Positions 19,130 through 54,337 of a DNA stretch of 55,236 nt are shown here, one piece after another (the stretch's first letter is position 1; the number at the start of each line of letters is the position of its first letter). The position numbers and the translations under genes are program-made. This stretch comes from Anaerolineae bacterium (GTDB taxonomy: Bacteria > Chloroflexota > Anaerolineae > 4572-78 > J111): the NCBI GenBank assembly GCA_016931895.1, contig JAFGDY010000296.1, positions 1-55,236 of the forward strand. Direction: 5' to 3'. The notes below the pieces were generated by a model. The model saw only the letters and a program-made list of their open reading frames with translations. It was not told the DNA's origin and searched no databases.

Positions 19130-21805
19130 ATGAAGTCTATTATCATCACTGCCGGAATTGCGCTGTTACTGGCCGTGTTTGTAACGTTGTCGTGGTATCC
19201 GGGGCAACTGGTAGCCGGTTTATTGTTTATTGCCTTTTTGCCCGGTTATACGCTCCTGGCGGCGCTCTGGCCCAATTCCGGCGACGCCCCTTTCACTCAG
19301 CCGGAACAATGGTTGGTGGCCGTGGCGGTCAGCTATGGATTGAGCGTCACCGTGCTGATGTTCATGGTTTTTGCCCGGCTGCCGTTAAATGGGTTGACCG
19401 TAGTGAGCGGCCTGGCCGGGATAACCCTAATTTTGGCCTGGGTCGCCTGGCTGCGCGCGCAAAAGGGGACTCCTCATCCGCGAAGGGTTCATCTGGATTC
19501 CTGGCTTATCGGGTTGGGCCTCGTTGTTCTGGTGGCGGCGCTCTTTCGGATAGTCAATATTTATTATTCCGATCACCAAGGCGATGAGGCCGAAATCTTA
19601 TTACGGGCGGTGTCGTTGGGTTATGGCCGTATTGAGGCTATGCTCACCCACACCAAAGGCCCCGGCGAGATTTTGTTATTGAACGCCATTGGCGCTATCG
19701 CGGGCCAATTTGACGAACAAACGGTTCGGTTGCCCTTTGCGCTGGCCGGCACAGCCGCGATTGGCCTGGTGGCGCTGTTGGGCCGGCGATTGTTCAATAA
19801 TTTGGTTGGCCTGGTGGCCGGTTTGCTGGCCGCTGTTGAAGGGGTTTTGATTTCCTACGCGCGCACGGCCCAATACCAGAGTGTGGTCTTGTTGTTCACC
19901 CTGGCTGCGTTGTTATGTTTTTATCGTTTTTATCAAACCGGCGGGCGTTCCAGGCGTTTGCACGGCCTGGGCGCGTTTTTGCTGGCTGCGGCTATTCTGT
20001 TTCATTTTGAAGCGGTATTGCTGGTGCCGGTAGCCATTTATTTGACCCTGGCCCACCTGGGACGGCCCAAACTTCAACAGCTAACTGCTTATCTTTCGCG
20101 CCTGGTTTATCTATGGCCTTCGGCCGTTATCTTTATCGTTTTGCTGGCTGTTTTTTATATCCCTTTTTTGTTACATCCCAGCGTTCAAAAAACCGGCGTG
20201 TATCTGGAAAACCGGGTGATAGCGGGCAGCCTGCCGCCTTTTAATAATTTGGCCCACTTTTTTTACTTTCAGGCGGTCAAATACAACTCTATTTATCACG
20301 TGGTTGGGCTTAATTTATTGTTATTGCTGGCGCTGCTCATTGACTTTGCCAGGACATTTTGGGATAAGGCAAATCAACAAACAGACCATCGTGTTTCTCG
20401 TTTCACAGATTACGTCTCGCGGTTTGTCCCGGCGATGGCCGTCGGCCTGATCCTGGCCGGTCTGATTTTGGTGATGAGGGGGGAGCAAAGATTATCGGCC
20501 TGGTTGTTGGGGTTGGGGCTATTTTTTATTTTTGGCCTGATCATCTTTTCGCGGGCCACGCCGCTACCCCAGCGAGTGCTCTGGTTGTGGATAGCGCCCT
20601 CTTTTTTAACTTACGTGGTTCTGGTCAATCGTCCCGGCAAACACCATTATTTGTTCCTGGCCGCTTTGATCATAGCCGGCGCGCTGGCGGTGGCCCAACT
20701 ATGGTCGGCGGGCGTCAAACGCTGGCCGTGGTTAAAACCTGCCGGGGGACGATGGTTGACCGCGGGCCTGGGGGTCATGCTGCTGCTAATTTTTGCCGCC
20801 CATGCCGTCATGCTGTTTTTGCGCAACGACCTGGAATACATCCTCACCTATCCGGCGCACAAAAACGCCTTTTACCCCACCGATGCCCACTATCCCCACG
20901 ATACCCGCATTGGGTTTGGTTTTCCGTTTCGCCTGGGCTGGCAAATGGTGGGCCGGTTGAAGCGCACCGGGCAGTTAGAGGGCACGTGGGCCGGCAATGA
21001 CGACGGCAACGCGCCCCTGTGGTACATGCTCAACACGCCGCCCACTCCCTGCTACCCCGACTACGTTTTACGGGGCGAAATCACTTACAAGGGCAGCGCT
21101 GATTTTGACGTGCCCTTTGACCCGCAGAATTTTGGCTATGTGCCCCGCTATCGCATTTGGGGCAATGACCGGCTGCGGTTGACGATTTTGGCCTTTGACC
21201 CGCTGGCCGGTGAAGTTGAGCCGTTTGACCTGTACGAAACTGCCCACTTTCCGCCGCCGGTTACGGCGACCGATTTTGCGGCCGGTATGAAGCCGCAGGA
21301 GCCGCCGACCCCGCAAATCCGGCTCGAGCCGGCCCCGGTTTTAGGCGAAGGTTCGGAATTAAAAGATAACGCCCCGCCCGAATACCTGGAACGAGCCAAA
21401 CGCTTAAAGGGTCAGGTGGCCTTGATTGGTTATGACCTGGAGACGCAGTTTGCCCAACCGGACGGAATTGTGCCTGTTACCTTACATTGGCAGGCGCAAA
21501 ACTTATTGAGTTTGCGTTACAAGGTATTTGTCCACTTGCTTTCGGCGGATGGCCGGGTGTGGTCTCAGGCCGATGATTTTCCGGTCTGCGGCCTGTCGCA
21601 CGCCAATAGTTGGCCGCCGGGAGCCGTTGTTCAGGATCGCCACCTGCTCAAACTGCCCCCCGACCTTCCCCCTGGTGCTTATACCTTGCTGGTGGGCATG
21701 TACGAGCCGGAGTTAGGATTGCGCCTGAATTATTTTGATGTGGCTGGAAATGAACAGGGTAATAGTTTAACGGCGGGAACTCTAGAAGTTAGACCCGGAT
21801 CATGA
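19130..21805 (+). CDS. GT-C glycosyltransferase with DUF1616-like N-terminus and one beta-sandwich module
   Basis: A 891-residue polytopic protein. The first 130 residues form four helices resembling the DUF1616 membrane domain. Then comes a PMT-like GT-C catalytic part with the acidic loop YSDHQGDEAEILLRA and KGPGEILLL, about ten more helices, and a soluble tail. One module closes the chain (VTLHWQAQNL, VFVHLLSADGR, PPDLPPGAYTLLVGMYEP). It differs from genes A and B in lacking the TYWNPLLGG segment. The start is taken at the ATG at 19130; a TTG four codons upstream is in frame. It overlaps the following CotH gene by four bases (ATGA). Confidence 0.88.
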   Translation: MKSIIITAGIALLLAVFVTLSWYPGQLVAGLLFIAFLPGYTLLAALWPNSGDAPFTQPEQWLVAVAVSYGLSVTVLMFMVFARLPLNGLTVVSGLAGITLILAWVAWLRAQKGTPHPRRVHLDSWLIGLGLVVLVAALFRIVNIYYSDHQGDEAEILLRAVSLGYGRIEAMLTHTKGPGEILLLNAIGAIAGQFDEQTVRLPFALAGTAAIGLVALLGRRLFNNLVGLVAGLLAAVEGVLISYARTAQYQSVVLLFTLAALLCFYRFYQTGGRSRRLHGLGAFLLAAAILFHFEAVLLVPVAIYLTLAHLGRPKLQQLTAYLSRLVYLWPSAVIFIVLLAVFYIPFLLHPSVQKTGVYLENRVIAGSLPPFNNLAHFFYFQAVKYNSIYHVVGLNLLLLLALLIDFARTFWDKANQQTDHRVSRFTDYVSRFVPAMAVGLILAGLILVMRGEQRLSAWLLGLGLFFIFGLIIFSRATPLPQRVLWLWIAPSFLTYVVLVNRPGKHHYLFLAALIIAGALAVAQLWSAGVKRWPWLKPAGGRWLTAGLGVMLLLIFAAHAVMLFLRNDLEYILTYPAHKNAFYPTDAHYPHDTRIGFGFPFRLGWQMVGRLKRTGQLEGTWAGNDDGNAPLWYMLNTPPTPCYPDYVLRGEITYKGSADFDVPFDPQNFGYVPRYRIWGNDRLRLTILAFDPLAGEVEPFDLYETAHFPPPVTATDFAAGMKPQEPPTPQIRLEPAPVLGEGSELKDNAPPEYLERAKRLKGQVALIGYDLETQFAQPDGIVPVTLHWQAQNLLSLRYKVFVHLLSADGRVWSQADDFPVCGLSHANSWPPGAVVQDRHLLKLPPDLPPGAYTLLVGMYEPELGLRLNYFDVAGNEQGNSLTAGTLEVRPGS

Positions 21806-24717
21806 GAAGCAAGAGAAACTATAAGCCGTTTTTCTGGGCGGCCACGCTGTTGTGTCTCCTGTTTGGCGGCTTACAGATTGCCATTCATGCGGTGCGCCAG
21901 GTGCCCAGCGACGTGATTATCAACGAATTCATGGCTGCCAATACTACCGGCTTAACCGATGAAAATGGCGAGCATGCGGATTGGCTTGAACTCTACAATC
22001 CAACCGGCCATCCGGTCAACCTGGGCGGTTGGTCGCTCACCGACGACCCCACCCAGCCGGAAAAGTGGCCCTTGCCCGATATTGTGTTGGGCAGCCATGC
22101 CTATTTGCTGATTTTTGCTTCCGGCAAAGACCGCCGCGCAGTTGAGCCGGGCGCGGCCTTGCACGCCAACTTTAAACTCAACCGGCAGGGTGAATTTTTG
22201 GGGCTGTACAACATTTTTGAAAAACGCTTTATGGACCAATTTTCGCCGTCGTTTCCAAAACAGTTTAGAGATATGGCCTACGGTCGTTATGGGCATGAGG
22301 GGCAGGCCGGCTATCTGGCCACAGCCACCCCCGGCCAGCCAAACAACGACAGCCTGGTTTGGCAGGGGGTATTGCCCCCGGTAGAATTTAGCGTGGAACG
22401 CGGTGTTTACGACGCTCCCTTCACCCTGGCCCTTCATTCGCCTGACCCGGCCGCCACCATCCGTTTTAGCACCGACGGCGGGCAGCCTACGGAAACGCGC
22501 GGCCTCCTCTACGTCCAGCCGATCCTCATTAGCACCACCACCTTTGTGCAGGCCACTGCCTTTAAACCCAATTTTCTACCCTCCCCCCCCCGGGCCCACA
22601 CCTACCTTTTTTTGAACGACGTGTTGCGACAGCCGGTTTTGCCGTCCGGTTTTCCCAAAACGTGGGGTATCCACGAGATTGATTTTGCCGGGCACGCCAG
22701 GGGCGAGGAAGTGCAAGCCGATTACGAACTGGACCCCAACGTGGTTAACGACCCGCGCTATCGCCCAACCATCACAGATGATTTGCAAACTATTCCTATT
22801 CTCTCCATTACCACCCATCCCCAAAATTTTGACATTTACGCCCATCCCCGGAATAGAGGCCGGGAGTGGGAGCGCCCGGTATCGGTGGAATTGATTGACC
22901 CTACCGGCAGCCAAACAGGCTTTCAAATCAATGCCGGTCTCAGGATTCAGGGTGGGGCGGGGCGGTGGGAATTTATGCCCAAGCACTCTTTTCGGCTTTT
23001 CTTTCGAGATGAGTACGGAGCTGCCACCCTCAAATACCCCCTTTTCTCCGATGCCCCGGTAGATGAGTTCGACACCCTCATTTTGCGTGGCGGCGTAGAC
23101 CGCAGTTATGCCGGCCATCCCGAAGTGGCCGACCACGCCCTGACCACTTATACTCGCGATGAATGGCTGCGCGCTTCGCAGATAGCCCTGTCGGGTGTTG
23201 GCGCGCACGGCATTTTTGTGCATCTCTATCTCAATGGCCTCTATTGGGGCCTGTATAACCTGGTGGAAAGGCCGGATGAGGCCTTTGCCGCCTCATATTT
23301 TGGCGGTCAAAAAGAGGAGTGGTACGTAATCAATCACCGGGGCACGGTGAGCGGCTCCAGCGACCGCTTTAGTGAATTATTGGCCTTGGTCAACAGCGGC
23401 AACCTGGCCGCGTCCGACCGGTATGCGCTGGTTCAAGCGTATCTGGATGTGACCCAATTCATAGATTACCTGATCTTAAACTGGTATGCGGGTACTGAGG
23501 ATTGGCCGGAAAACAATTGGTATGCCGTGTTGCCCAACCGGCCCTCGGGCCGGGTGAATTTTTTGGTTTGGGATGGGGAAGAAAGTTGGAACGAGGGGGC
23601 CAAAATTCACCTGGGCCAAAACGACCTGGCCGGTCGGCCTAACCTCGTCAAAATATTCTTTGAAGCCTTGAGCCAGAATCCGGACTTCAAAATGGAATTG
23701 GCCGACCGGTTATACAAACATCTCTCTCACAACGGCGTTCTTACCGATGTCCAGGCTAAGGCCCGCTGGCGGCGGCTCAATCAAGTGCTTGACCGGGCCA
23801 TTGTGGGCGAGTCGGCCCGGTGGGGAGATGTTAGGCAAGAGCCGCCGCTAACGCGGGACGACTGGCTCAAGGCACGAGATAATGTGTTGGCCCAAATGGA
23901 GGGCAATGCCGCCAAACTGTTGGCCCAGGCGCGGGCCATGGGGTATTATCCGCCGCTTGACCCGCCGGTTTTTAACCAACAGGGCGGTTTGGTGGCCGGG
24001 GATTTTGAACTGACCATGACCATTTCTACCCCGGTTAGCGGAGCGACCATCTACTACACCACCAACGGCGCCGACCCCCGCCTGCCCGCTAGCGGCCAAG
24101 TTTTGCCCGAGGCTTTGATTTATGACACCCCGCTGCCGTTGACCACAACCACGTTTATCAAAGCGCGGGCATTGGCCGGTGAGGCCGGTGAGGGGCCGGT
24201 GTGGAGCGCCCTGAATGAAGCCACCTTCAAACTGCGGGCCGCCGGGCCGCAGGCGGCCCTCACCGAGATAATGTACAACCCGGTGGGCGGGAACCAATAC
24301 GAATTCATTGAGTTAAAAAACACCGGCGATACGGATTTGCCCCTGGGCGGCGCGTTTTTTGATGAAGGGATTGCGTTTAAATTTCCGGCGGCAGTGGCCC
24401 CGCTTGCGCCCGGCCAGATGATTGTGCTGGCCCGCAACCCCGGCGCTTTTGCCAGCCGTTATCCGGGGGTGGAAATTGCCGGGGTGTATCAGGGAAAATT
24501 ATCAAACCAGGGCGAACGGCTCACCCTGCGTAACGGGTCGGGCGACATCTTGGTTTCTGTAGCGTATAACGATGAAAATGGCTGGCCCATCAGCCCGGAT
24601 GGCCGGGGCGATTCATTGATTTTGGTGGACCTGGCCGGGGATGTAGACAATCCGCAGCACTGGCGGGCCAGTATCGAGGTAAATGGTTCACCCGGCAGAG
24701 ACGAACCGGCCCCATAA
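21802..24717 (+). CDS. CotH kinase family protein with lamin-tail domains, paralogue 2
   Basis: A 971-residue paralogue with the same five-domain order as the gene at 9065: signal anchor (about 11-32), lamin-tail, chitobiase-C-like fold (TIRFSTDGGQPTE), CotH core, chitobiase-C-like fold (IYYTTNGADPRLP) and a final lamin-tail (LTEIMYNPVGGNQ). The active-site region reads DWPENNWYA and FLVWDGEESW, so the key acidic residues are kept. The start overlaps the stop of the preceding GT-C gene. A run of nine C at 22583-22591 lies in the Pro-rich end of the first chitobiase-like fold. Downstream is a remnant of a VTC gene instead of an intact one. Confidence 0.9.
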   Translation: MRSKRNYKPFFWAATLLCLLFGGLQIAIHAVRQVPSDVIINEFMAANTTGLTDENGEHADWLELYNPTGHPVNLGGWSLTDDPTQPEKWPLPDIVLGSHAYLLIFASGKDRRAVEPGAALHANFKLNRQGEFLGLYNIFEKRFMDQFSPSFPKQFRDMAYGRYGHEGQAGYLATATPGQPNNDSLVWQGVLPPVEFSVERGVYDAPFTLALHSPDPAATIRFSTDGGQPTETRGLLYVQPILISTTTFVQATAFKPNFLPSPPRAHTYLFLNDVLRQPVLPSGFPKTWGIHEIDFAGHARGEEVQADYELDPNVVNDPRYRPTITDDLQTIPILSITTHPQNFDIYAHPRNRGREWERPVSVELIDPTGSQTGFQINAGLRIQGGAGRWEFMPKHSFRLFFRDEYGAATLKYPLFSDAPVDEFDTLILRGGVDRSYAGHPEVADHALTTYTRDEWLRASQIALSGVGAHGIFVHLYLNGLYWGLYNLVERPDEAFAASYFGGQKEEWYVINHRGTVSGSSDRFSELLALVNSGNLAASDRYALVQAYLDVTQFIDYLILNWYAGTEDWPENNWYAVLPNRPSGRVNFLVWDGEESWNEGAKIHLGQNDLAGRPNLVKIFFEALSQNPDFKMELADRLYKHLSHNGVLTDVQAKARWRRLNQVLDRAIVGESARWGDVRQEPPLTRDDWLKARDNVLAQMEGNAAKLLAQARAMGYYPPLDPPVFNQQGGLVAGDFELTMTISTPVSGATIYYTTNGADPRLPASGQVLPEALIYDTPLPLTTTTFIKARALAGEAGEGPVWSALNEATFKLRAAGPQAALTEIMYNPVGGNQYEFIELKNTGDTDLPLGGAFFDEGIAFKFPAAVAPLAPGQMIVLARNPGAFASRYPGVEIAGVYQGKLSNQGERLTLRNGSGDILVSVAYNDENGWPISPDGRGDSLILVDLAGDVDNPQHWRASIEVNGSPGRDEPAP
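22583..22591 (+). repeat. Homopolymer run of nine C within CotH paralogue 2
   Basis: CCCCCCCCC followed by GGG encodes part of LPSPPRAHTY. The aligned codons of the other two CotH genes have no such run. Loss or gain of one C would truncate the protein before the kinase core. Confidence 0.85.
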
Positions 24718-24720
24718 AAA

Positions 24721-24789
24721 GAGGCCGTGATTGGGGAAATCCGGTATTTGTACTATACTCTGCGTTTACCCTATCCGGCCAAAGACTGA
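24721..24789 (+). pseudogene. Remnant of a second VTC-domain gene
   Basis: Read from 24721, the frame encodes EAVIGEIRYLYYTLRL and soon stops. The intact VTC protein encoded at 28083 has QAVIEEIQYLYYTLQL at residues about 130-145. At the DNA level 24724-24762 and 28473-28511 differ at only a few positions. Nothing else of a VTC gene is present. The remnant lies four bases after the CotH 2 stop and runs straight into the 7-base repeat array, so a VTC gene once following CotH 2 has probably been deleted. Confidence 0.75.
24731..24759 (+). promoter_or_regulatory. Possible promoter inside the VTC remnant
   Basis: TTGGGG (24731-24736), 17 bases and TATACT (24754-24759). It could serve CotH 3, which otherwise has no visible promoter. 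The -35 is weak. Confidence 0.3.
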
Positions 24790-24855
24790 CGACCAAAGAC
24801 TGACGACCAACGACCAAATTTCGTCATTCGTTATTCGTCGTTGGTCATTCGTCGC
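24784..24855 (+). repeat. 7-base tandem array, two inverted halves (GACCAAM / TCGTYAT)
   Basis: Left half: GACTGAC, GACCAAA, GACTGAC, GACCAAC, GACCAAA. Right half: TCGTCAT, TCGTTAT, TCGTCGT, TGGTCAT, TCGTCGC. The halves are near reverse complements, so a long hairpin can form. The array ends two bases before the CotH 3 start codon. Confidence 0.88.
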
Positions 24856-24857
24856 TA

Positions 24858-27827
24858 ATGATTATGATCATCCGCAGACTTCGTAAAACAATCTTTTTTA
24901 CAGCCGTTTTAGCTTGCCTGTTGTTGGGCGCGCGGTGGGTTCTTTTTATTTCCGCCAAAGAAATTCCCGGCAACCTGGTGATCAATGAGTTTGTGGCCGT
25001 CAATGGCAGCGGCTTGACCGACGAAGATGGCGACTATGCGGATTGGATTGAAATTTACAATGCGGGGCAGCAGCCGGTCAACCTGAGCGGTTGGTCTTTA
25101 ACCGACGACCCCAACCGGTTAGCCAAGTGGACCTTCCCGGACATAATCTTGGGCAGCCACGAATACCTGGCGGTTTTTGCCTCCGGCAAAGACCGCAAAT
25201 CTGGGGAGCCTGGTTCATCCCTGCACACTAATTTTAAACTCAACCAAAAAGGCGAATTTTTGGCCCTCTACAATATTTTATACAACCAGTTAATAGATGT
25301 GGCCGCGCCGCAGTTCCCGCCGCAGTTTAGGGACCTGAGCTATGGCCGCTATGGCCAGGGTGTATACGGTTACCTGGCCAACCCTTCTCCCGGCGCAGCC
25401 AACGACGAAACCACAACCTGGGCCGGCGTGGTGGCCCCGCTCCTCTTTAGCCAGCCGCGCGGCTTTTATAACGATCCCCTCACCCTTGAGTTGAGCACCC
25501 CCACCGAAGGGGCCACTATTCGTTATACCACGGATGGCAGCCGGCCCACCGAAACCAACGGCCAAACCTACACCGGGCCGCTGAGCATTGCCGGAACAAC
25601 GTTGGTGCGGGCCGTGGCCTTTAAGCCGGGTTTTTTGCCCTCTTATCTGGACACGCATACCTACCTTTTTCTTGATGACGTGCTGGCCCAACCGGCGCAT
25701 CCCCCCAACTTTCCCGATACCTGGGGTATCCATTCCAAAAACATCGGCGGCTACGTTAAAGACACGCCGGTGCTGGCCGATTACGAGATGGACCCCGCCG
25801 TGGTTAACGATCCTCTCTACCGGGACGAGATCAGAGAAGGCATGGTTTCAATTCCCTCTCTATCTATTGTTACCGAAATGCAAAACTACAATATCTATGG
25901 CCAGCCCAGAATGAGGGGCGAAGTCTGGGAGCGGCCTGTTTCGGTGGAGTTGATTTACCCTGACTCCCAGCAAGAGGGGTTTCAAACTAACGCGGGCCTG
26001 CGTATTCAGGGCGGGGAAGCGCGATGGGAGTATATTCCCAAACACTCCTTTCGCCTGTTTTTCAAAGCCAAATACGGAGCCACCAAACTTGAATATCCCC
26101 TGTTCCCCGACTCGCCGGTCACGCAGTTCGATACCCTGGTGCTGCGCGGCGGCACCAGCCGTAGTTACGCCGGACGCCCGCGCAGCGACCAGCGAGCCGT
26201 TACTTATACCCGCGATGAATGGATGCGAGCTACCCAGGTTGACCTCTCCGGGGTCGGTTCGCACGGTATGTTTGTGCACCTCTATCTCAACGGGATGTAT
26301 TGGGGTTTGTACAACGTCATCGAAAGGCCGGACGCCTCGTTTGCCTCGGCCTATTTTGGCGGCGATAAAGACGATTGGTTTGCCATTAAACACGGTTTTG
26401 CCGACGAAACATCACCTGATAAACAGGAGTTGTGGCATGGCGTCAACCACGGTGAGCCACTCAGCGGCAGCAGCGACCGGTATGATACCCTGCATCGTTT
26501 GGCCAGTGAAGGGAACCTGGCCGACCCTGAAAAATATGCCGCCCTCACCGCTTATGTTGACATCCCTCAATTTATTGACTTTTTCATCTTAAATTGGTAT
26601 GGTGGCCGGGCCGATAGCTGGACCGAAAACAACTGGTACGCGATTATCCAAAATCCGGCGGGCAAAATAAAATACTTTGTTTGGGATGCGGAAAATGTGT
26701 GGGATGATGGCGCCCTGATCAATGTGGGTAAAACCGGGCCGCGCAACGCCCTGAAACGCCTTTTTGACGCCCTCAGCCAAAACCCGGATTTTAAAATGGA
26801 ACTGGCCGACCGGCTGTACAAGCATCTCTTTAACGATGGCGCGCTGACCGAGGCCAACGCCCAGGAACGTTGGCTGCGGATCAATCAGCCAATTGAGCAG
26901 GCCATTATCGGCGAATCGGCCCGCTGGGGGGATGTTCGGCACGAAACGCCTGTGACCCAGGCCGATTGGCTCAAGGCCCGGGCTGATGTGTTGGCCCAGA
27001 TGGAGGGCAACGGGGACAAGTTGATCGCTCAAGCTCGCCAGGTTGGTTACTATCCAAATATTGATCCGCCCGTTTTTAATCAGCACAGAGGCGTGGTGCC
27101 TGCCGGCTTCAATTTAACAATGACCGCTACGGAGGGCGTGATTTACTATACCACCGATGGCTCTGATCCCCGCCTGCCGGTGACCGGCGAGGTTGCGTCC
27201 GGGGCCGTCGCCTACAAAACTCCCCTGGTGTTAACCGCCACTACCCCGATTAAAGCGCGGGTTTTGGCCGACGACCCGGCAGCCGGAACAGGCCAAACGT
27301 GGAGCGCCTTGCATGAGGCTGTGTTTAAAGTGGTGGAGCGCGAAAGTCAACTCAGCCTGACCGAAATTATGTACAACCCCTTGGGCGGAAGTGGCTACGA
27401 GTTTGTTGAACTGAAGAATGTGGGCGAGACGGCCTTAAATTTGGCCGGGATGTATTTTGATGAGGGCATTGAGTTTGTTTTTCCTCCTGGTGCGGTTCCT
27501 CTGCCTCCTGATGGTTTGGTAGTGCTGGTTAGAAATCCAGAGACCTTTGCCCAACGATACCCCGGTGTTCTCAGGGGGGGTGTTTATCAGGGTAAATTGG
27601 CCAACCAGGGAGAAAAGATAATCCTGCGGGACGCTGGGGGTAAGGTGGTGGTGTCGGTGAATTATAATGATGAAAACGGCTGGCCGGTCAGCCCGGATGG
27701 GCGCGGCGATTCATTGGTTCTGGTTGATCCGGGCGCGGACCCGGATAATCCCCTCAGTTGGCGGGCCAGTGCCAACCTGCACGGTTCGCCGGGCAAGGAT
27801 GAGCCAGCCTTAGAAACTAAAAATTAG
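24858..27827 (+). CDS. CotH kinase family protein with lamin-tail domains, paralogue 3
   Basis: A 989-residue paralogue with the same architecture as the other two. It has a signal anchor (about 13-33), lamin-tail (LVINEFVAVNGSGLTDEDG), chitobiase-C-like fold (TIRYTTDGSRPTE), CotH core, second fold (IYYTTDGSDPRLP) and lamin-tail (LTEIMYNPLGGSG). The core has an extra segment of about 20 residues before SGSSDRYDTL. Active-site positions are SWTENNWYA and FVWDAENVW. The start ATG (24858, or 24864 two codons on) directly follows a repeat array and has no ribosome site. The last codons and stop (ETKN then TAG) are supplied by another 7-base array. It is followed by an intact VTC gene. Confidence 0.9.
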   Translation: MIMIIRRLRKTIFFTAVLACLLLGARWVLFISAKEIPGNLVINEFVAVNGSGLTDEDGDYADWIEIYNAGQQPVNLSGWSLTDDPNRLAKWTFPDIILGSHEYLAVFASGKDRKSGEPGSSLHTNFKLNQKGEFLALYNILYNQLIDVAAPQFPPQFRDLSYGRYGQGVYGYLANPSPGAANDETTTWAGVVAPLLFSQPRGFYNDPLTLELSTPTEGATIRYTTDGSRPTETNGQTYTGPLSIAGTTLVRAVAFKPGFLPSYLDTHTYLFLDDVLAQPAHPPNFPDTWGIHSKNIGGYVKDTPVLADYEMDPAVVNDPLYRDEIREGMVSIPSLSIVTEMQNYNIYGQPRMRGEVWERPVSVELIYPDSQQEGFQTNAGLRIQGGEARWEYIPKHSFRLFFKAKYGATKLEYPLFPDSPVTQFDTLVLRGGTSRSYAGRPRSDQRAVTYTRDEWMRATQVDLSGVGSHGMFVHLYLNGMYWGLYNVIERPDASFASAYFGGDKDDWFAIKHGFADETSPDKQELWHGVNHGEPLSGSSDRYDTLHRLASEGNLADPEKYAALTAYVDIPQFIDFFILNWYGGRADSWTENNWYAIIQNPAGKIKYFVWDAENVWDDGALINVGKTGPRNALKRLFDALSQNPDFKMELADRLYKHLFNDGALTEANAQERWLRINQPIEQAIIGESARWGDVRHETPVTQADWLKARADVLAQMEGNGDKLIAQARQVGYYPNIDPPVFNQHRGVVPAGFNLTMTATEGVIYYTTDGSDPRLPVTGEVASGAVAYKTPLVLTATTPIKARVLADDPAAGTGQTWSALHEAVFKVVERESQLSLTEIMYNPLGGSGYEFVELKNVGETALNLAGMYFDEGIEFVFPPGAVPLPPDGLVVLVRNPETFAQRYPGVLRGGVYQGKLANQGEKIILRDAGGKVVVSVNYNDENGWPVSPDGRGDSLVLVDPGADPDNPLSWRASANLHGSPGKDEPALETKN

Positions 27828-27844
27828 AAATTAGAAATTAGAGA
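27810..27844 (+). repeat. 7-base tandem array (TTAGAAA) over the CotH 3 stop codon
   Basis: Five units: TTAGAAA, CTAAAAA, TTAGAAA, TTAGAAA, TTAGAGA. The stop codon TAG at 27825-27827 is part of unit three. Confidence 0.85.
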
Positions 27845-27890
27845 TGGGTAGCCCACTTTGAACAGATATTCCGTATCGCGTATTTCGTTT

Positions 27891-27999
27891 GGGTGTGTTT
27901 CATTTGAGTTGAGACTACCCCTAGAGTGCGGAATTTATTCCGCTTTTTGGCAGAGGCAGAATGAAATTTGCACTCCTTCAACTGATTTGAAACGCACCC
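27891..27999 (+). mobile_element. MITE-like palindromic element, 109 bp, with 9-bp target duplication
   Basis: Terminal inverted repeats GGGTGTGTTTCATTTGAGTT (27891-27910) and AACTGATTTGAAACGCACCC (27980-27999) match at 16 of 20 positions. Identical 9-base direct repeats ATTTCGTTT flank it at 27882-27890 and 28000-28008. GAGTGC (27924) and GCACTC (27970) extend the symmetry inside. No coding capacity. Removing it and one copy of the 9-mer restores CGTATTT/CGTTT, which looks like a degenerate 7-base array. The 9-bp duplication is consistent with several IS families; the parent is not in the window. Confidence 0.78.
27928..27948 (+). terminator. Terminator-like hairpin inside the MITE
   Basis: GCGGAAT and ATTCCGC pair around TT, followed by TTTTT. 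It could terminate transcription coming from CotH 3 and so separate it from VTC. Confidence 0.5.
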
Positions 28000-28019
28000 A
28001 TTTCGTTTAGGCACTATAG

Positions 28020-28033
28020 AATACGTAATACGC
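28020..28033 (+). repeat. Two 7-base units (AATACGT, AATACGC)
   Basis: The same unit family recurs inside the GT-C genes at 42634 and 45215. Only two units here. Confidence 0.6.
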
Positions 28034-28082
28034 CTTGAGAAGTTGCCTCAGTAAGATTCCGCAAAATGAGTTTTTAGAGAGT

Positions 28083-28835
28083 ATGATGAGAATAAAAGAG
28101 TATAGCCGTTTTGAACTTAAATACGTTTTGAGCCGGGAACAGCAGGGCCGGCTGGTGGAGGTGTTGGCCGATTATTTGCAGCCCGACGTTATGGGCGACG
28201 CGCAGGGGCGTTATAACATCACCAGCCTTTACTACGACACGGATGACTACAAAGCCTATTGGGATAAAATTGAAGGGCACAAGTTTCGGCGCAAGGTGCG
28301 GGTGCGGGTTTACGGCGACCAGGTGGTTACGCCCGACACCCCTTGTTTTGCCGAAATCAAACAACGCAGAAACAAGACCCTGCAAAAAAAACGAGTCAAA
28401 ATGTCCTACGCCTTGGCCATTGCCCTGTGTGGGGCCGGTGAGCCGGTGGAGAATGTGTCGGCAACAGAGCAGGCCGTGATTGAGGAAATCCAATATTTGT
28501 ATTATACTCTGCAATTGCAGCCGGCCTGCGTGGTCAGTTACGACCGCCTGGCCTTTAACGGCGGTGAATACGACCCTGGCCTGCGGGTCACGTTTGACAC
28601 CAACTTAAAAGGCCGCACCCATGACCTGTCTTTACTTTCCGCCGGCCAGGTGGAAAATCATTTTTTTATGCCGCCGGGGTCGTGTGTTCTGGAAATTAAA
28701 GTAAACTACCGGGTGCCTTACTGGTTAACCGAGCTGATCGGCAAACATCGCTGCACCTTGCGCCGAATTAGCAAATACTGCACTGCTTTGGAGCAATCCA
28801 AGGCGCTATTACAGCATCAGCAAATATTTTATTAA
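28083..28835 (+). CDS. VTC-domain protein (polyphosphate polymerase domain)
   Basis: A 250-residue single-domain protein of the VTC/TTM superfamily, whose eukaryotic members polymerise polyphosphate from ATP in a tunnel lined by basic and acidic residues. Visible tunnel motifs: SRFELKYVL (R9, E11, K13), RRKVRVRVYG, CFAEIKQRRNKTLQKKRV, and a C-terminal VLEIKVNYRVPYW. No membrane span. The start is the ATG at 28083 (or 28086) after a weak AGAGAG; the open frame back to 28035 has no support. It lies 16 bases before the DUF4956 gene and follows CotH 3, a combination known from many bacteria where the three families co-occur. Confidence 0.9.
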   Translation: MMRIKEYSRFELKYVLSREQQGRLVEVLADYLQPDVMGDAQGRYNITSLYYDTDDYKAYWDKIEGHKFRRKVRVRVYGDQVVTPDTPCFAEIKQRRNKTLQKKRVKMSYALAIALCGAGEPVENVSATEQAVIEEIQYLYYTLQLQPACVVSYDRLAFNGGEYDPGLRVTFDTNLKGRTHDLSLLSAGQVENHFFMPPGSCVLEIKVNYRVPYWLTELIGKHRCTLRRISKYCTALEQSKALLQHQQIFY

Positions 28836-28851
28836 AAAAGAGGGAATGGTA

Positions 28852-29544
28852 ATGGATTTCTTAAAACTCCTGGAGAGCCTCCAGGATGCTACCAATGTTT
28901 TTTCCACGGAAGATGTTATTTTTGTCTTGATCCTCAGCTTTGTGCTCTCGTTGATAATTGCCTGGGTTTACAGACTCACCTACCGGGGCGTCTCATACAC
29001 CCAATCTTACGTGCATACCTTGATTATGATGACCATGGTGGTGGCGGTGATCATGCTGATCATCGGCTCTAACATTGCGCGAGCCTTTGCCCTGGTGGGC
29101 GCGTTGTCCATTGTGCGGTTTCGTAACGCGGTCAAAGATACCCGCGATGTGGGTTATATTTTCTTTGCCATGGCCATTGGCATGGCCGTAGGCACGCGCT
29201 TTTACCTGCTGGCCATTATTGCTACGGTGATCATTTCTTTTATCTGGTGGGGCATGGCTACGCTCAACCTGTTTGCCAAAGACATTCGAGAGCAAATCCT
29301 CAAGATCAGGTTGCCGGCCGACATGCCCTACGACACTCTGTTTGACCGCGTTTTTGCCCGGTACCTGGCCCGTTTTAGCCTGATTGCGGTTGAAACCGTT
29401 CAGGCCGGAACGCAGACCGAGTTGATTTACGGCATTGAGCTTAAAAAGCAGCAGGAGGCCCAGGAACTTATGGCCGAATTGCGCAAACTCAACGACAACA
29501 ACAAAGTGGCGCTGCTTACGGGACACCACGAAGTTGATCTCTAG
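28852..29544 (+). CDS. DUF4956 membrane protein
   Basis: A 230-residue membrane protein with about four helices in residues 20-140 and a soluble C-terminus of about 80 residues. The DUF4956 core ALVGALSIVRFRNAVKDTRD is intact. AGAGGG seven bases upstream selects the second ATG (28852) over the one at 28846. DUF4956 genes usually sit beside VTC-domain genes; the membrane protein may recruit the soluble VTC domain, which is inference. Its 3' end may overlap the following oxidoreductase gene by 11 bases. Confidence 0.9.
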   Translation: MDFLKLLESLQDATNVFSTEDVIFVLILSFVLSLIIAWVYRLTYRGVSYTQSYVHTLIMMTMVVAVIMLIIGSNIARAFALVGALSIVRFRNAVKDTRDVGYIFFAMAIGMAVGTRFYLLAIIATVIISFIWWGMATLNLFAKDIREQILKIRLPADMPYDTLFDRVFARYLARFSLIAVETVQAGTQTELIYGIELKKQQEAQELMAELRKLNDNNKVALLTGHHEVDL

Positions 29545-34749: not shown

Positions 34750-36906
34750 ATGCGTTTACCAACTATCACCCTTATTATCCTCACCCTGGCCGGTTTTGCC
34801 CTGCGTCTGCACTATCTCATTTCCACGCATCCCTTTTTTGACGAATATACCACCGGGCTGGCCGCCCGCCAGATTTTGCAATACGGCTGGCCGGTATTGC
34901 CTTCCGGCCTATTTTACGAACACGGCCTGCTGGCCACTTACGTGATCGCCCCTTTTGCCGCTTTATTTATCAACGCGCCAGTCTCGCAATGGCAGCCTGC
35001 GCATTGGAGCTTGATGCTTGCCCGCTGGCCCAGCCTGCTCGTCAGCGCCGTCACCATTCCCTTGCTTTACACGCTTGGCCGCCGTGGGTTTACCACCTCT
35101 CTTTCCGCCCCTCTTGGCCTGTTGGCGGCCGGGCTGTTTGCCTTTAGCCCCGAAGGCATGGTCTGGGGGGGACGGGCGCGAATGTACGCCCTGGCCACCC
35201 TCCTGGTTTTGCTGGCCGTTTACTGGGCTTATCGTGGCTCGATCTGGCCCGCTCCGGCCAAATATCGCTGGTGGGCCTGGTTGACCCTTTTTTTTGCCCT
35301 GCTCACCCAACTGGGCGTTTTGACCCTACTCCCACCCTTGTTAGTAGCCATGCTTAGCCTGGGCTGGCTCTCCTCAAGACAAAAACCCGCTATCCGCCCC
35401 TGGTTTCTCAGGCCAACTGTTGTTCTGGATGGCCTGACTCTGGTGGCCATCATTGGCCTGGCGCTCCTGGTAAAACGTTTAGGCCAACCCCTTGGTGTCC
35501 CAACTTTGGTCGAGCCGGGCAGTGGTCCTCTTTGGCAGGAATTGTTCAAGACAGTCACTTACCAGACCGCCTTCCACTTTTCCTGGCTCGATGCCCTCAA
35601 ATTTCTCTCCCGCCAATTTGGCGTGCCCCACCATTTCTGGCTCACTATCGCTACCCTCATTGGCGCGGTGATCGGCCTGCTTGTTTGGCTCGCCGGCGCA
35701 AACAGTCAGAAATTAGAAATCAGAAAAAAGAAATCCATTTCTAATTCCTATTCCCTATTCTCTATTTTTCTATGGCTTGTTTTTGGCCTCATTATCCTGG
35801 AAATGATCACTTTGCTCGATCCCTTCCGCCGCAACCCCCGCTACGTGGTAATGTACCTGCCCCTTTTTTACCTCATCGCGGCCAGCGCCATCTTTAATTT
35901 TAGATTTATACTCGTTTCACCTTTGACCGCCTTATTGGGGAAAATCGGCATCCGGCATGTGGCGCAGAGAAAAGAGGGCAGGGTGTCCTGTTGGCAGCGC
36001 GGGCTACCTTCCCCGGCCCGGTTTCTCTCCCCCACGTTTGTCTCCCTCGTTCTGCTCATCTTCTTCGTAGCCGTCGGTTTTAACGACCTGCGTTTAACCC
36101 TGGTCACTCCCGAACCGGCCTATGAGGAGGCGTTAGCTTTTGTGCAGGCTAATTGGCAGCCGGGCGACACCTTGCTGACGATGAATACTCCCGCAGCCGG
36201 TCTTTATCTGGGCCATGCCGATGGCTTTACGGTTCAAAAAGAAGCCGAGCAGTTTTTGCTCAAGTCCGGCCCTGTTCCCGTTGACCGCTGGTTGGGTGCG
36301 CCCTGGGTGGGCACTGCCGCCGATTTTAATATGGCTCTCAATGCCGGTAAACGAACCTGGTTTGTTATTGATACCATTCGCCAGCCGGTTTATTTCAAAG
36401 GTGACTGGCTGGCTGTGGTCAACAATCAAATGGAGCAGGTTTGGGCCAAAGACAATGCCCTGGTCTACCGCACCCGGCCTGATCGTATTCCGTTGCCCAC
36501 CCAGCCCCAAACCCTTATCAACGCTACCCTGGGCAATTCAATTCAACTGCTTGGTTACACCCTCAGTGATGGGCCAAATTCGGCCTTGAGCCTCACTCTT
36601 TTCTGGCAACCCCTCACCTCCCTGCCCACCGATTACACCACTTTTCTACACGTTCGCAATCAAGCGGGCGATACGGTGGCGCAACAGGATGGTCAGCCCC
36701 TGGCCGGGCTTTATCCTACCAGCCATTGGCTGCCCGGCGAGACCGTGGTTGACCTCATCACCCTGTCGCTCCCCCCAGATTTGCCCGCCGGGAATTATAC
36801 CGTTTTGGTTGGCCTCTACCAGCTCGACACGCTGGAACGCCTACCCGTGGCCAACGACGCCTCCGGCGAAAACGCCGTTATCTTAGGAGAGTTCACGCTG
36901 CCATGA
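34750..36906 (+). CDS. GT-C glycosyltransferase with one beta-sandwich module (C)
   Basis: A 718-residue polytopic membrane protein. The first external loop holds STHPFFDEYTTGLAARQ, the acidic GT-C motif, and WGGRARMYAL follows in the third helix region as in PMT-like enzymes. About ten helices end near residue 440; one beta-sandwich module closes the protein (LSLTLFWQP, DYTTFLHVRNQ, PPDLPAGNYTVLVGLYQL). The loop encoded at 35705-35767 is a 7-base repeat array read in frame. No ribosome site is seen before the ATG. The next gene overlaps by four bases. Confidence 0.88.
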   Translation: MRLPTITLIILTLAGFALRLHYLISTHPFFDEYTTGLAARQILQYGWPVLPSGLFYEHGLLATYVIAPFAALFINAPVSQWQPAHWSLMLARWPSLLVSAVTIPLLYTLGRRGFTTSLSAPLGLLAAGLFAFSPEGMVWGGRARMYALATLLVLLAVYWAYRGSIWPAPAKYRWWAWLTLFFALLTQLGVLTLLPPLLVAMLSLGWLSSRQKPAIRPWFLRPTVVLDGLTLVAIIGLALLVKRLGQPLGVPTLVEPGSGPLWQELFKTVTYQTAFHFSWLDALKFLSRQFGVPHHFWLTIATLIGAVIGLLVWLAGANSQKLEIRKKKSISNSYSLFSIFLWLVFGLIILEMITLLDPFRRNPRYVVMYLPLFYLIAASAIFNFRFILVSPLTALLGKIGIRHVAQRKEGRVSCWQRGLPSPARFLSPTFVSLVLLIFFVAVGFNDLRLTLVTPEPAYEEALAFVQANWQPGDTLLTMNTPAAGLYLGHADGFTVQKEAEQFLLKSGPVPVDRWLGAPWVGTAADFNMALNAGKRTWFVIDTIRQPVYFKGDWLAVVNNQMEQVWAKDNALVYRTRPDRIPLPTQPQTLINATLGNSIQLLGYTLSDGPNSALSLTLFWQPLTSLPTDYTTFLHVRNQAGDTVAQQDGQPLAGLYPTSHWLPGETVVDLITLSLPPDLPAGNYTVLVGLYQLDTLERLPVANDASGENAVILGEFTLP
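35705..35767 (+). repeat. In-frame 7-base tandem array (ATYAGAA then CCTATTC)
   Basis: GTCAGAA, ATTAGAA, ATCAGAA, AAAAGAA, ATCCATT, TCTAATT, CCTATTC, CCTATTC, TCTATTT. It encodes a Lys/Ser-rich loop (QKLEIRKKKSISNSYSLF) between two helices. Confidence 0.82.
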
Positions 36907-39080
36907 CCGCTCATCTCTCAAACAGCCAAAATCCGCCAGCCCCCAACCGCAATCCATTTCCTGTCTCTTTTCTCGACCATCCCCGTCTCGTTGCTTTTCT
37001 TCTTTTCCTACTCGCGCTATTCCCTCGTCTGCCTGGCCTGAAACGTTTCTTGACCAGCGATGAGAACACCAACATTTTTTTTGCCGGCAGCGATGTAATT
37101 GCCGCCTTTTTGCGGGGCGACTGGCGCGGCACTTATTGGCATTTTTATCCGGGTGTAACGATGAGTTGGCTGGATGCTCTGGGCATAGCGGGTCAATATT
37201 TGGTTGACCTTTTCACCGGCCAGCCAGTCCCCCCCTTCACCGAGTACATTTATGGCGATATTTTGACGTTGCTGGTAGCCAATCGTTTGCCCTATGCCCT
37301 CTTAACCGCGGCGGCTGTGCCGGCCGTTTACCTGCTGGCCTGCCAATTGTTGCCCAAACGTTTGGCCCTGCTGGGCGCGCTCTTTCTGGCCGTTGACCCC
37401 TTTTACCTGGCCCATTCCCGCATGGCCCATGGCGACGCGCCGGTGGCTGTTTTTATGAGCCTATCGGCCCTGGCTTTTTTTGTGTACCTTGAAAAGTTGG
37501 CGAAAAACAAGTTAGGGAACGAAAAAACTGGCAATAATTTCTACTTTCTAATTTCTAATTTTTTTCCCCGGTCGGCCTTTATTTATCTGGTTCTCTCCGC
37601 CGTTTTTGGCGGCCTGGCCGCGCTCACCAAAGCTCCCGGCCAATTTATGGCCCTATTTGTCATTGGTATGTCTGGGGGCTGCGCCGGGCTAAAACTCTGG
37701 CAGGACAAAAAACAACTAAGCCGCTGGCCGCAGTCGGTCATCCGCTTGGTTCTGCCCTGGCTTGCAGTTGTCGTCGTTTGGGGGGGTGTGGCGCTCTTCG
37801 TCTTCGTTCTGCTCTGGCCCAGTATGTGGGTGGACCCCCTGGGCACGTTTAACCAGATGTGGGCCGAAACCTTTGGCAAGGTCGAGGAAGGCCACCTGGT
37901 TTACTTTTTGGGCCGGGCTACGCTTGACCCCGGACCCTGGTTCTATTTTTACGTCATTCCCTTCCGGCTTACGCCCGTAGTCCTGCTTGGCAGCGTCTTA
38001 TCTTTATTCGTCTTTATCCCTAACCTTCATCCCCACCGGACAGGTTCAACTCGCCGGGCCTCCTTCTACTTCTGGCTATTTGTTATTGCCCTATTGTTTT
38101 TTGGCAATCTCAGTCCCAAAAAACAGGATCGTTACCTGCTACCGCTGTTCCCGTTTCTGGATCTGCTGGCGGCCATTGGCTGGATGGGTTTGTTAAATTG
38201 GGTGTTCGGCTCCTTTTTTAAATCTCAAATCTCAAATCTCAAATCCCTAAGCCCGGCCTTTTTAATTTCTAATTTCTTACTTTTCATTCTCCTGGTATTT
38301 CACTTCCTGCCGGTTCTCACCTACTACCCTTACTATCTCACTTACTTCAACCCGCTACTGGGCGGCCCCACTCGCGCGGCAAAAACAACGTTGATGGGCT
38401 GGGGCGAAGGTATGGAGCAAGTCGCGGCTTATCTCAATACCAAACCCAACGCCGAACAGCTTTACGTAGCCTCAACCCCATCCCAAACGCTGCTGCCTTA
38501 CTTTGCCGGGACGGGCGAGAATTTTTATACCAACGACATCGCCTTCCGCGCCGATTATGTGGTGCTCTATCTGGCCCAAATGCAGCGCCTGGCCCCCAGC
38601 CCGGAAATTGTGCGTTATTTTGAAGCGCAACCGCCGGAGAAAATTATCACCATCCAGGATGTCGTTTACGCCAAAGTCTATCCCGGCCCCAAACTCATCC
38701 TCACCGACCTTCCGCCTACAGCCATTCCCCTCAATATTGGTTTGGCCGATACCCTGCGCCTGGCCGGTTACGAAAGGCAAAACTCCCGTCTAACTCTCTA
38801 CTGGCATGCCCTGACTCCCCTGTCTGTTGACTATACTATCTCGGTCCGTGCCCGCGCCGCTGAGGGGCAACTGCTGGCCCAACAGGATAGCTGGCCGGTT
38901 AATGGCTTGCTGCCCACCTCCCAATGGCGGCAAGGTGATTACGTAACCGATACGCACCTTTTGGAATTGCCTGAAACGGAGGTCGAGCAAATAGAGAGTT
39001 TTGAAATTGTGGTCTACCACCTGGCCACCGGCGAAACTCTTGGCCCGCCTATTGTTATCCCAATGAACCATGAACAGTGA
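36903..39080 (+). CDS. GT-C glycosyltransferase with one beta-sandwich module (D)
   Basis: A 725-residue GT-C protein of the same subgroup as genes A and B. Its acidic motif is FLTSDENTNIFF, and the HFYPGVTMSWL block follows. WPSMWVDPLGTFNQM and LDPGPWFYFYVIPFR are present, then PYYLTYFNPLLGG and GWGEGMEQVAAYLN. The final module is partly eroded (LTLYWHALTPLSVDYTI). Two loops are encoded by 7-base arrays (37541-37561, and 38221-38248 with 38260-38287). Paralogues B and gene 43908 have much shorter loops at one or both places. The start overlaps the previous stop (ATGA). Confidence 0.88.
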   Translation: MTAHLSNSQNPPAPNRNPFPVSFLDHPRLVAFLLFLLALFPRLPGLKRFLTSDENTNIFFAGSDVIAAFLRGDWRGTYWHFYPGVTMSWLDALGIAGQYLVDLFTGQPVPPFTEYIYGDILTLLVANRLPYALLTAAAVPAVYLLACQLLPKRLALLGALFLAVDPFYLAHSRMAHGDAPVAVFMSLSALAFFVYLEKLAKNKLGNEKTGNNFYFLISNFFPRSAFIYLVLSAVFGGLAALTKAPGQFMALFVIGMSGGCAGLKLWQDKKQLSRWPQSVIRLVLPWLAVVVVWGGVALFVFVLLWPSMWVDPLGTFNQMWAETFGKVEEGHLVYFLGRATLDPGPWFYFYVIPFRLTPVVLLGSVLSLFVFIPNLHPHRTGSTRRASFYFWLFVIALLFFGNLSPKKQDRYLLPLFPFLDLLAAIGWMGLLNWVFGSFFKSQISNLKSLSPAFLISNFLLFILLVFHFLPVLTYYPYYLTYFNPLLGGPTRAAKTTLMGWGEGMEQVAAYLNTKPNAEQLYVASTPSQTLLPYFAGTGENFYTNDIAFRADYVVLYLAQMQRLAPSPEIVRYFEAQPPEKIITIQDVVYAKVYPGPKLILTDLPPTAIPLNIGLADTLRLAGYERQNSRLTLYWHALTPLSVDYTISVRARAAEGQLLAQQDSWPVNGLLPTSQWRQGDYVTDTHLLELPETEVEQIESFEIVVYHLATGETLGPPIVIPMNHEQ
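37541..37561 (+). repeat. In-frame 7-base tandem array (CTAATTT)
   Basis: CTACTTT, CTAATTT, CTAATTT. It encodes FYFLISNF in an extended loop absent from paralogues A, B and 43908. Confidence 0.75.
38221..38287 (+). repeat. In-frame 7-base tandem arrays (AATCTCA; TTCTAAT)
   Basis: AATCTCA three times then AATCCCT (38221-38248). A second series at 38260-38287 reads TTTTAAT, TTCTAAT, TTCTTAC, TTTTCAT. They encode KSQISNLKSLSPAFLISNF before the helix that leads to TYFNPLLGG. Confidence 0.85.
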
Positions 39081-39131
39081 AACCGTAAACCTTAAACAAC
39101 CCCCTGCCCTTCTCTCCTCTCTCCTCTCCCT
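39065..39131 (+). repeat. 7-base arrays spanning a stop/start junction (GAACAGT; TCTCTCC)
   Basis: GAACCAT, GAACAGT, GAAACCG, TAAACCT, TAAACAA (39065-39099), then TCTCTCC, TCTCTCC, TCTCCCT (39111-39131). The first holds both the ATG of the next gene (39070) and the TGA of the previous one (39078-39080). Confidence 0.75.
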
Positions 39132-41244
39132 TCTTCCCTTCTTTATCATCCTCCTGGCTACATTTCTCCGCCTCTACCACCTGCCAGTTCTACCCCCCGG
39201 CCTAAATTTTGACGAAGCCGGCAACGGCGTGGCTGCCTTTGACGTTTTACGCGGCGAGCCAAAACTGTGGTGGCGGATTGGCGGGGGTAAAGAACCGCTC
39301 TGGCCCTATCTTATGGCGGCAAGCACCACCATTTTGGGGAATATTCCCCTGGCCCTGCGTCTGCCCGCCGCTTTGGTTGGCATTTTAAGCGTGGCTGCGG
39401 TTTATCCTTTGGGGCTTGTGCTGTTCGGCGGCGCAAACCGGCAGGGTTGTCCTCATGCGCGGCTGATTTCTCTGCTAACGATGCTTGGCCTGGCCCTGTC
39501 TGCCTGGCATCTTCATTTTAGCCGCCTCGGTTTTCGAGCCATTCTCCTGCCTTTATTTTCTACCCTGGGATTTTATTTTTTGTGGCGCAGTATTGTCAGG
39601 AGCCAGGAACCAGGAACCGGGCGTCGAATATTTTTTGCCCTGGTCTTATCGGCGTTTTTTGTGGCGCTGGCGGTTTATGCCTACCTGGCCGCCCGGTTAT
39701 TGCTGCTGGCGCCCCTGCTCTTTTTTGCGCTCCATTGGTTGAACGTTTTTGCCCGCAGCCACCGGGCCGGAAGCCCGCCAATGGCGGCGTTTACTCGCCC
39801 CCTCCTCCTGCTAATTTCTAAGTTCCTATTTCTCCTTTTTCTCTTTCTCTCCCCCCTCCTCGTCTACTTTCTTTTCCACCCGGCCGATTTTATGACCCGC
39901 TCAACCGCCGTATCCATTTTTAATCCTGCCTGGCGCCAGGGCGATTTGTTTGGCGCAGCCGGGCGCGTCTTGACCCTCACCCTTGGCACCTTTGTTGGTT
40001 TTACCGGCGACCCCAACCCCCTGGTCAATTTGCCCGGCCAACCTGCCGTGCCGGTTTTGCTGGCTTCCTTTTTTTTGTTGGGGGTTTTGGTCAGTCTCTA
40101 CCGCCTTATCCGTCCTCGACCCCTTCTATCCGCCAATCCTTATCTGTTTCTGCTCTGCTGGTGGGCCGTTATGCTGCTCCCGGCCCTGCTCGCCCCCGAA
40201 GGCGCGCCCCACCATCTGCGCCTCATCGGCGCCATTGTGCCTACCTACCTTTTCATTGCTGTAGGAATGACTGCCGCCGCCGGGCTGCTGGTCAAACTTA
40301 TCAGCTCTATTTTGCGTTACCCAAAATACGCCCTCTGTCCTCATCTGCTATCTGCTACCTGCTATCTGCTACCTGCTATCTGCTACCTACTCCTGGCTTT
40401 GCAAACTTACTCTAACTACTTTCTCCGCTGGCCTGCGGCGGTTGACTTTACCCTGCCTTTCGATCTCTACGCCGTTCGCCTGGCTAATGACATCGCCCAG
40501 GCTCCGCCTGATACCGTTTACGTGTTGCCCATGGATATTCGCGCCGGGCCGGAAGCGCGACACTATACCCTGGATTACCTGTTGGCCTCTTACCGGCCTT
40601 CAGCCTACATTTACCTGCCCGTTGACGAGCATAACGCCGAAACCCTGCTCACCACCCGGGCCGTTGCCGGCAAAAACGAGCTGCGCCTGGTCCGCTGGAC
40701 CGCGGACAAACACCACGAGGCCGACGCCAAAGAAATTGTCGCTTTTTTGCTGCAAACAAATGCCGTCCTCGTAACGCGGGAATCGTATCCGGTATACGAT
40801 CTTGAAACTTATACCCTCAACAGAAACGCCTCCTTTACGCTGCCGGCCATCACTCAGCCCATTGGCGCTACCTTCGACAATTTGCTGCGCCTGGATGCTG
40901 CCTTTATCCCTCCCACCGCCGCCCCCGGTCACTCGCTGCCCGTCGCCTTGACCTTTGCCCCCCTGGCCCAAATGGAGGCGGATTACAAGGTTTCTCTGCG
41001 CCTCATTAGCCCCAACGGCGAACGGGTCGCCCAAAAAGACCGGGTCTTGTTACACAATTTCCACCAGGGCACCTCACTCTGGCCGCCTGAAACGGCCAAT
41101 GAGTATTACCTGCTGCCAATTCCATCAGACGCCCAACCGGGCCAATATACGGTAGGGGTGGTTGTTTATCACCCCGACACGCAGGCTCCCCTGCTGGCCG
41201 GTGGCCTGGTGGAAGTGCCCCTGGGCGCTGTTTGGGTAAAGTGA
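39070..41244 (+). CDS. GT-C glycosyltransferase with one divergent beta-sandwich module (E)
   Basis: A 724-residue polytopic protein. The acidic motif is LNFDEAGNGVAAFDVLRG, typical of ArnT/PMT-like enzymes; GGGKEPLWPYL and FSRLGFRAILLP follow. About eleven helices are predicted before residue 460. The soluble tail contains one poorly conserved module (MEADYKVSLRLISPNGER, PGQYTVGVVVYHPDTQ). Three 7-base arrays are read in frame (39595, 39811, 40343), and the N-terminal 20 codons derive from two more. The start overlaps the previous gene by 11 bases. Confidence 0.87.
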   Translation: MNSETVNLKQPPALLSSLLSLLPFFIILLATFLRLYHLPVLPPGLNFDEAGNGVAAFDVLRGEPKLWWRIGGGKEPLWPYLMAASTTILGNIPLALRLPAALVGILSVAAVYPLGLVLFGGANRQGCPHARLISLLTMLGLALSAWHLHFSRLGFRAILLPLFSTLGFYFLWRSIVRSQEPGTGRRIFFALVLSAFFVALAVYAYLAARLLLLAPLLFFALHWLNVFARSHRAGSPPMAAFTRPLLLLISKFLFLLFLFLSPLLVYFLFHPADFMTRSTAVSIFNPAWRQGDLFGAAGRVLTLTLGTFVGFTGDPNPLVNLPGQPAVPVLLASFFLLGVLVSLYRLIRPRPLLSANPYLFLLCWWAVMLLPALLAPEGAPHHLRLIGAIVPTYLFIAVGMTAAAGLLVKLISSILRYPKYALCPHLLSATCYLLPAICYLLLALQTYSNYFLRWPAAVDFTLPFDLYAVRLANDIAQAPPDTVYVLPMDIRAGPEARHYTLDYLLASYRPSAYIYLPVDEHNAETLLTTRAVAGKNELRLVRWTADKHHEADAKEIVAFLLQTNAVLVTRESYPVYDLETYTLNRNASFTLPAITQPIGATFDNLLRLDAAFIPPTAAPGHSLPVALTFAPLAQMEADYKVSLRLISPNGERVAQKDRVLLHNFHQGTSLWPPETANEYYLLPIPSDAQPGQYTVGVVVYHPDTQAPLLAGGLVEVPLGAVWVK
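39595..39622 (+). repeat. In-frame 7-base tandem array (RCCAGGA)
   Basis: GTCAGGA, GCCAGGA, ACCAGGA, ACCGGGC, encoding VRSQEPGTG in a loop between helices. Confidence 0.82.
39811..39852 (+). repeat. Degenerate in-frame 7-base array (CTAATTT-like)
   Basis: CTAATTT, CTAAGTT, CCTATTT, CTCCTTT, TTCTCTT, TCTCTCC. It encodes a Leu/Phe-rich membrane stretch (LISKFLFLLFLFLSP). Confidence 0.55.
40343..40391 (+). repeat. In-frame 7-base tandem array, seven units (AYCTGCT)
   Basis: ATCTGCT, ATCTGCT, ACCTGCT, ATCTGCT, ACCTGCT, ATCTGCT, ACCTACT. The clearest array of the window. It encodes a heptad-periodic membrane segment, LLSATCY then LLPAICY then LLL. Confidence 0.95.
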
Positions 41245-54124: not shown

Positions 54125-54183
54125 ACCGGCGGCAGTGATTACGTTTCTTTTAGATGGGGAATTAAATAACTTACCCATTCATT

Positions 54184-54256: not shown

Positions 54257-54337
54257 CATGCGCAAGTTAATTAATTTTCATTCCTTAGCACAAGCTGGTG
54301 GGCGCGGGTGAAAAATTGCCGGTAGGTGAGGAGTGGG

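Follow-up and report, generated by a model that had tools for sequence, protein, structure and literature searches.

A survey of intergenic pseudogene fragments in prokaryotes is described as asking for more than one disablement (Genome Biol. 2004 5:R64, PMC522871). In Clostridium perfringens, the locus NELoc-2 is listed with the gene order VTC, 'tubulin', resolvase, VTC, 'tubulin', CotH (PMC2879425). Intergenic heptanucleotide repeats are reported from the Beggiatoaceae and Cyanobacteria, and slippage has been proposed for them (PMC4679880). Our literature search found nothing on the CotH-VTC locus considered here, which lies in a 55,236-nt contig (JAFGDY010000296.1, assembly GCA_016931895.1) of an Anaerolineae bacterium; this whole stretch of DNA was analysed and is called the window below. 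It holds an intact VTC gene and, between two CotH genes upstream of it, a small piece of VTC coding sequence (Table 1).

CotH 2 and CotH 3 are tandem paralogues that share 59% of their amino acids and 64.5% of their nucleotides over 958 codons, and CotH 3 precedes the intact VTC gene across a gap of 255 bases. From the CotH 2 stop codon to the CotH 3 start (24858) there are 140 bases in two parts, with the VTC remnant on the left and a heptamer array on the right. The intact VTC gene (polyphosphate-polymerase-like) is the source or the sister of the remnant, and it is the single VTC hit in its own genome. A separate observation concerns CotH 1 and CotH 2, which are 90% identical over a 41-nt stretch (11840-11880 and 24574-24614) while the pair averages 63%; this could reflect gene conversion or strong local constraint.

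Table 1. Position of the genes, the remnant and the repeats around the CotH-VTC locus
Feature	Position	Strand	Description
CotH 2	21802-24717	+	971 aa; LTD, chitobiase/Fn3-associated and CotH-kinase domains; Pfam CotH PF08757, E = 1.2e-20
VTC remnant	24721-24780	+	core 24722-24763; VTC codons 130-148 (28470-28526), one 3-nt indel in the match
Heptamer palindrome, dispersed hairpin element	24779-24857		adjoins the right end of the remnant and the start of CotH 3; period 14 = 2 x 7
CotH 3	24858-27827	+	989 aa; Pfam CotH, E = 1.7e-23
Second heptamer array (TTAGAAA)	27810-27842		overlaps the CotH 3 3' end; Tandem Repeats Finder
MITE-like element	27891-27999	+	about 109 bases between CotH 3 and VTC; TIRs GGGTGTGTTTCA / TGAAACGCACCC
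Intact VTC gene	28083-28835	+	250 aa; Pfam VTC PF09359, E = 4.9e-44
DUF4956 gene	28846-29544	+	Pfam PF16316, E = 5.4e-17; usual VTC neighbour

The peptide read from the remnant, EAVIGEIRYLYYTLRL, corresponds to VTC residues 130-145, QAVIEEIQYLYYTLQL, and 40 of the 48 nucleotides in these codons are identical, in agreement with the first-pass annotation, which had the gap encoding nearly the same peptide as VTC. The core aligns without gaps to 28471-28512 (38 of 42 nt identical, local score 32.0). With one 3-nt indel, the match extends through CCGGCC to 24780 (VTC to 28526), where the extension past 24768, including the final 12 bases and the indel, was aligned by eye. The DNA match first noted as about 39 bases long is real, and its length is corrected to about 42 nt, or 57-60 nt with the indel. 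Its right end coincides with the start of the array (24779) to within about 2 nt, as had been noticed of the fragment and the 7-base array, and its left edge lies a few nucleotides after the CotH 2 stop codon (24715-24717). The remnant is on the VTC strand and, by coordinates, in the CotH 2 frame, with a TGA at 24787-24789. It is incomplete, comprising only residues 130-148 of the 250-aa protein, so that most of the domain is missing; in a tblastn search with VTC, the row in the gap between the CotH genes covers residues 129-145 alone.

A chance match was ruled out, both by 1000 first-order Markov shuffles of the gap (maximum score 13.5, compared with 32.0 for the remnant) and by the BLAST E-value of its match to VTC, which is 5e-9 in the self-comparison of the window and 1.8e-9 against the whole own genome. 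The self-comparison yielded 10 pairs at E ≤ 1e-3, and in our judgement this one appears to be the sole pair that joins a gene to an intergenic place. Judged by sequence, the significant homology confirms that the stretch is a genuine remnant of a VTC family (PF09359) gene.

We searched the whole own genome with the 140-base gap and obtained 71 rows (40 of 113 candidates scored). Two of these touch the remnant, namely itself and the VTC gene, and the other 69 fall within the array portion of the gap and represent, by our count, 38 other places. Across 12 genomes of the family, the remnant was found in its own genome alone, with no match in the 11 others at E ≤ 0.01. The first-pass annotation had held that a 39-base match found widely in unrelated intergenic DNA would indicate a dispersed repeat; such a spread is absent, and it is the array, not the remnant, that is dispersed. 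As the matches listed for the remnant in its own genome are itself and VTC, a dispersed repeat was rejected.

VTC was searched for in 25 genomes of the order, 13 of which have one VTC hit each and 12 of which have none; among the 13 VTC-bearing genomes, no intact second VTC copy was found. DUF4956 adjoins VTC in most relatives mapped, and VTC is immediately preceded by a CotH gene in G003, G005, G006 and G010. In G006 (C5) and G010 (C3), two genomes of a sister genus, the VTC start overlaps or abuts the CotH stop codon, and DUF4956 follows. These CotH genes (G006_C5 and G010_C3) are also the nearest relatives of CotH 2, in a grouping whose support (88/95 in a 20-row tree, 91/96 in a 16-row tree) is below the tool's star threshold. 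Because the nearest relatives of CotH 2 run directly into VTC, VTC debris behind CotH 2 makes sense, and its presence in a slot where VTC would be expected supports a remnant rather than an accident. As to the suggestion made at first pass, to look for a full VTC gene after CotH 2, relatives of CotH 2 precede the sole VTC gene in G006 and G010, and among the 13 VTC-bearing genomes none was found with a second CotH-VTC pair. Outside the phylum, a Rhodothermaeota MAG (L031) has two tandem CotH-like stretches before VTC-DUF4956, showing that the layout occurs there as well.

We compared the divergence of the remnant with that of the CotH pair. The tree path between CotH 2 and CotH 3 is about 0.94, compared with about 0.19 for the same-genus CotH orthologues G000_C56 and G001_C217; at about five times the orthologue path, the estimated CotH split is long past. 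The remnant agrees with its own VTC at 40 of 48 nucleotides and with the VTC of the same-genus genome G001 at 34 of 48. The two VTC genes agree with each other at 41 of 48 over the remnant's codons and at 71.7% overall, and this stretch is unusually conserved between them (a count of 41 is reached in no more than 10 of 235 windows). At the seven sites where they differ, the remnant matches its own VTC at six, G001 at none and neither at one (sign test, 6 vs 0, two-sided P = 0.03). Nonsynonymous changes account for 5 of the 8 differences between the remnant and VTC and for 2 of the 7 between the two VTC genes in the same codons, where about 80% would be expected without selection; the numbers are small, and the pattern no more than leans towards relaxed constraint. 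Barring gene conversion, the remnant most likely came from this lineage's VTC, late, and not from the event that made the two CotH genes. The age evidence is moderate, because it comes from 48 bases in a well-conserved stretch.

We consider it probable, at roughly 60%, that a second VTC copy, or a longer part-copy, once stood directly after CotH 2 and that the stretch is what is left of it as dead debris. That copy would derive late from the VTC of this lineage, at about the time of the separation from G001 or afterwards, and CotH 3 would have come between the two VTC copies or would already have been there. Deletion would then have taken away roughly the first 129 codons of the copy and, at the other end, everything from about codon 149 up to the heptamer element upstream of CotH 3; 57-60 nt would remain, to which we assign no function. 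The slot of the lost copy would be the same as that of VTC behind CotH 2's nearest relatives. Against this reading, none of the 13 VTC-bearing genomes among the 25 was found to have an intact VTC behind a CotH 2 orthologue together with a second VTC, and the grouping of CotH 2 with G006 and G010 stays below the star threshold, with a sisterhood of CotH 2 and CotH 3 not rejected. The genus has one further genome, G001, in which no CotH adjoins VTC, and the within-genus part of this history is tentative accordingly.

Cyanobacterial STRR sequences are heptanucleotide repeats, and the element that borders the remnant is likewise built from 7-nt units. It has at least 38 further locations in its own genome, inverted arms at 24798-24817 and 24834-24853, and a calculated RNA fold of -22.6 kcal/mol (z = -2.4). 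Intergenic heptamer palindromes of this kind have units such as GACCAAC or GACGAAC in one arm and the complement in the other, around an AATTT-like loop, and are possibly terminators or RNA elements. Of the other array copies, which number at least 38, we took 10 and searched the own genome with 20 of their flanks, each 60 nt long; at E ≤ 0.001 all of these matched only their own places. With none of 20 flanks carrying second-hand sequence, we rejected the view that such arrays are scars which generally carry copies of genes, and the first-pass placement of the array at a deletion scar is not borne out for an element so widely distributed. A link between the array and the deletion is possible.

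Alternatively, the heptamer hairpin could have been the site of a break whose repair copied about 60 nt from the VTC gene, 3.7 kb downstream, into the gap between CotH 2 and CotH 3, and a full second VTC gene would never have existed there. One event would be enough, and it would account for a piece that is internal to the gene, younger than the CotH split, and bordered to within about 2 nt by an element able to form a hairpin. However, such a patch would leave to chance that the piece lies in the VTC slot of CotH 2's nearest relatives, and the flanks of the 10 other element copies hold no patch from elsewhere (0 of 20). We regard it as possible, though rather unlikely.

The first-pass annotation had proposed that an ancestral CotH-VTC unit was duplicated, giving CotH 2-VTC'-CotH 3-VTC, and that VTC' was then lost. 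The tandem CotH paralogues are consistent with this order, as are CotH 3 preceding VTC in the window, the CotH 2 relative preceding VTC in G006 and G010, and a sisterhood of CotH 2 and CotH 3 that is not rejected (p-AU = 0.28). However, because the remnant is much younger than the CotH split, one old CotH-VTC duplication does not explain it, unless there was gene conversion. The 59% identity and the long path between the CotH genes, set against a remnant that is closer to its own VTC than to that of the same genus, would require a long homogenisation of two VTC genes. We find this duplication improbable; the better fit is a VTC copy or part-copy of later date that was then largely deleted. What stands of the proposal is that the stretch is a gene remnant, in the slot that VTC has in the nearest relatives of CotH 2; the copying itself would most likely be later than the CotH pair.

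The remnant could also have been left from the locus's old VTC when homologous recombination exchanged the locus for a donor segment that brought in CotH 3 together with a VTC of slightly different sequence. Alleles of related strains or species could well differ by the 10-17% seen here, and the best tree puts CotH 2 and CotH 3 on different branches. This replacement would nevertheless need an extra deletion and a donor, of which none is known, and G001 and the window share the grouping of VTC, DUF4956 and GT2; we consider it very improbable. Least credible is that the 60 nt are kept for a function, for instance as a C-terminal readthrough extension of CotH 2 (to the TGA), or as an mRNA segment with a binding site common to the VTC mRNA that would couple CotH 2 and VTC expression. 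In the region 24600-28200, Rfam gave no known RNA element at E ≤ 1. Scans found 5 promoter-like sites (2.4 ± 2.2 in shuffles) and 6 terminator-like sites (5.0 ± 2.1 in shuffles).

The 255-base gap between CotH 3 and VTC shrinks to 137 when the MITE-like element and one target copy are subtracted. The element's boundaries and target duplications were read from an alignment of six copies, in which inverted ends and 9-bp duplications are visible. It has terminal inverted repeats (one mismatch in this copy), a 9-bp target duplication (ATTTCGTTT, at 27882-27890 and 28000-28008), unrelated insertion sites and a length too short for a transposase, all of which are features of a MITE. It occurs in 12 other places in the genome at 91-96% identity, three of them at contig starts, as if the assembly broke at repeated copies. 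The inverted arms GCGTATTTCGT and ACGTAATACGC (27878-27888 and 28023-28033) flank it, and it appears to have inserted at the centre of a further palindrome that is itself heptamer-like. With one array before CotH 3, and the TTAGAAA array and the MITE after it, repeats lie on both sides of this gene. Elsewhere in the window, 7-base tandem arrays (38220-38245, 40343-40388 and 44691-44720) lie inside long ORFs (36903-39080, 39070-41244 and 43884-46505, respectively); because 7 is not a multiple of 3, changes in their copy number would shift the frame. A 117-nt imperfect palindrome, 73% self-complementary, is located near the window end (54160-54276).

The remnant is an ordinary kind of gene debris and a small piece of genome history. 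Turnover is fast in the CotH-VTC-DUF4956 neighbourhood of these Anaerolineae: CotH genes come and go beside a VTC gene of which each of the 13 VTC-bearing genomes of the order has one, and the debris and the MITE mark the joins. The debris represents one roughly datable event in this turnover, and it opens no long-standing question.

The heptamer element resembles the repeats described from the Beggiatoaceae and Cyanobacteria in its 7-nt units, its intergenic location and its many copies per genome, and differs from those described there in its unit sequence and in forming an inverted pair around a short loop (PMC4679880). The VTC remnant is similar to the prokaryote gene remnants characterized in the survey: it is homologous to a known gene, intergenic, without a complete frame, and made up of an internal part only. 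Unlike the remnants described there, it is much shorter, and the contig that holds it also carries its parent gene, at a distance of 3.7 kb (PMC522871). The NELoc-2 locus differs from the window in that both of its VTC genes are listed as full-length, and its 'tubulin' may be the DUF4956 partner. Its duplicate VTC beside CotH, as listed, provides a precedent for a doubled VTC unit next to a CotH gene (PMC2879425).
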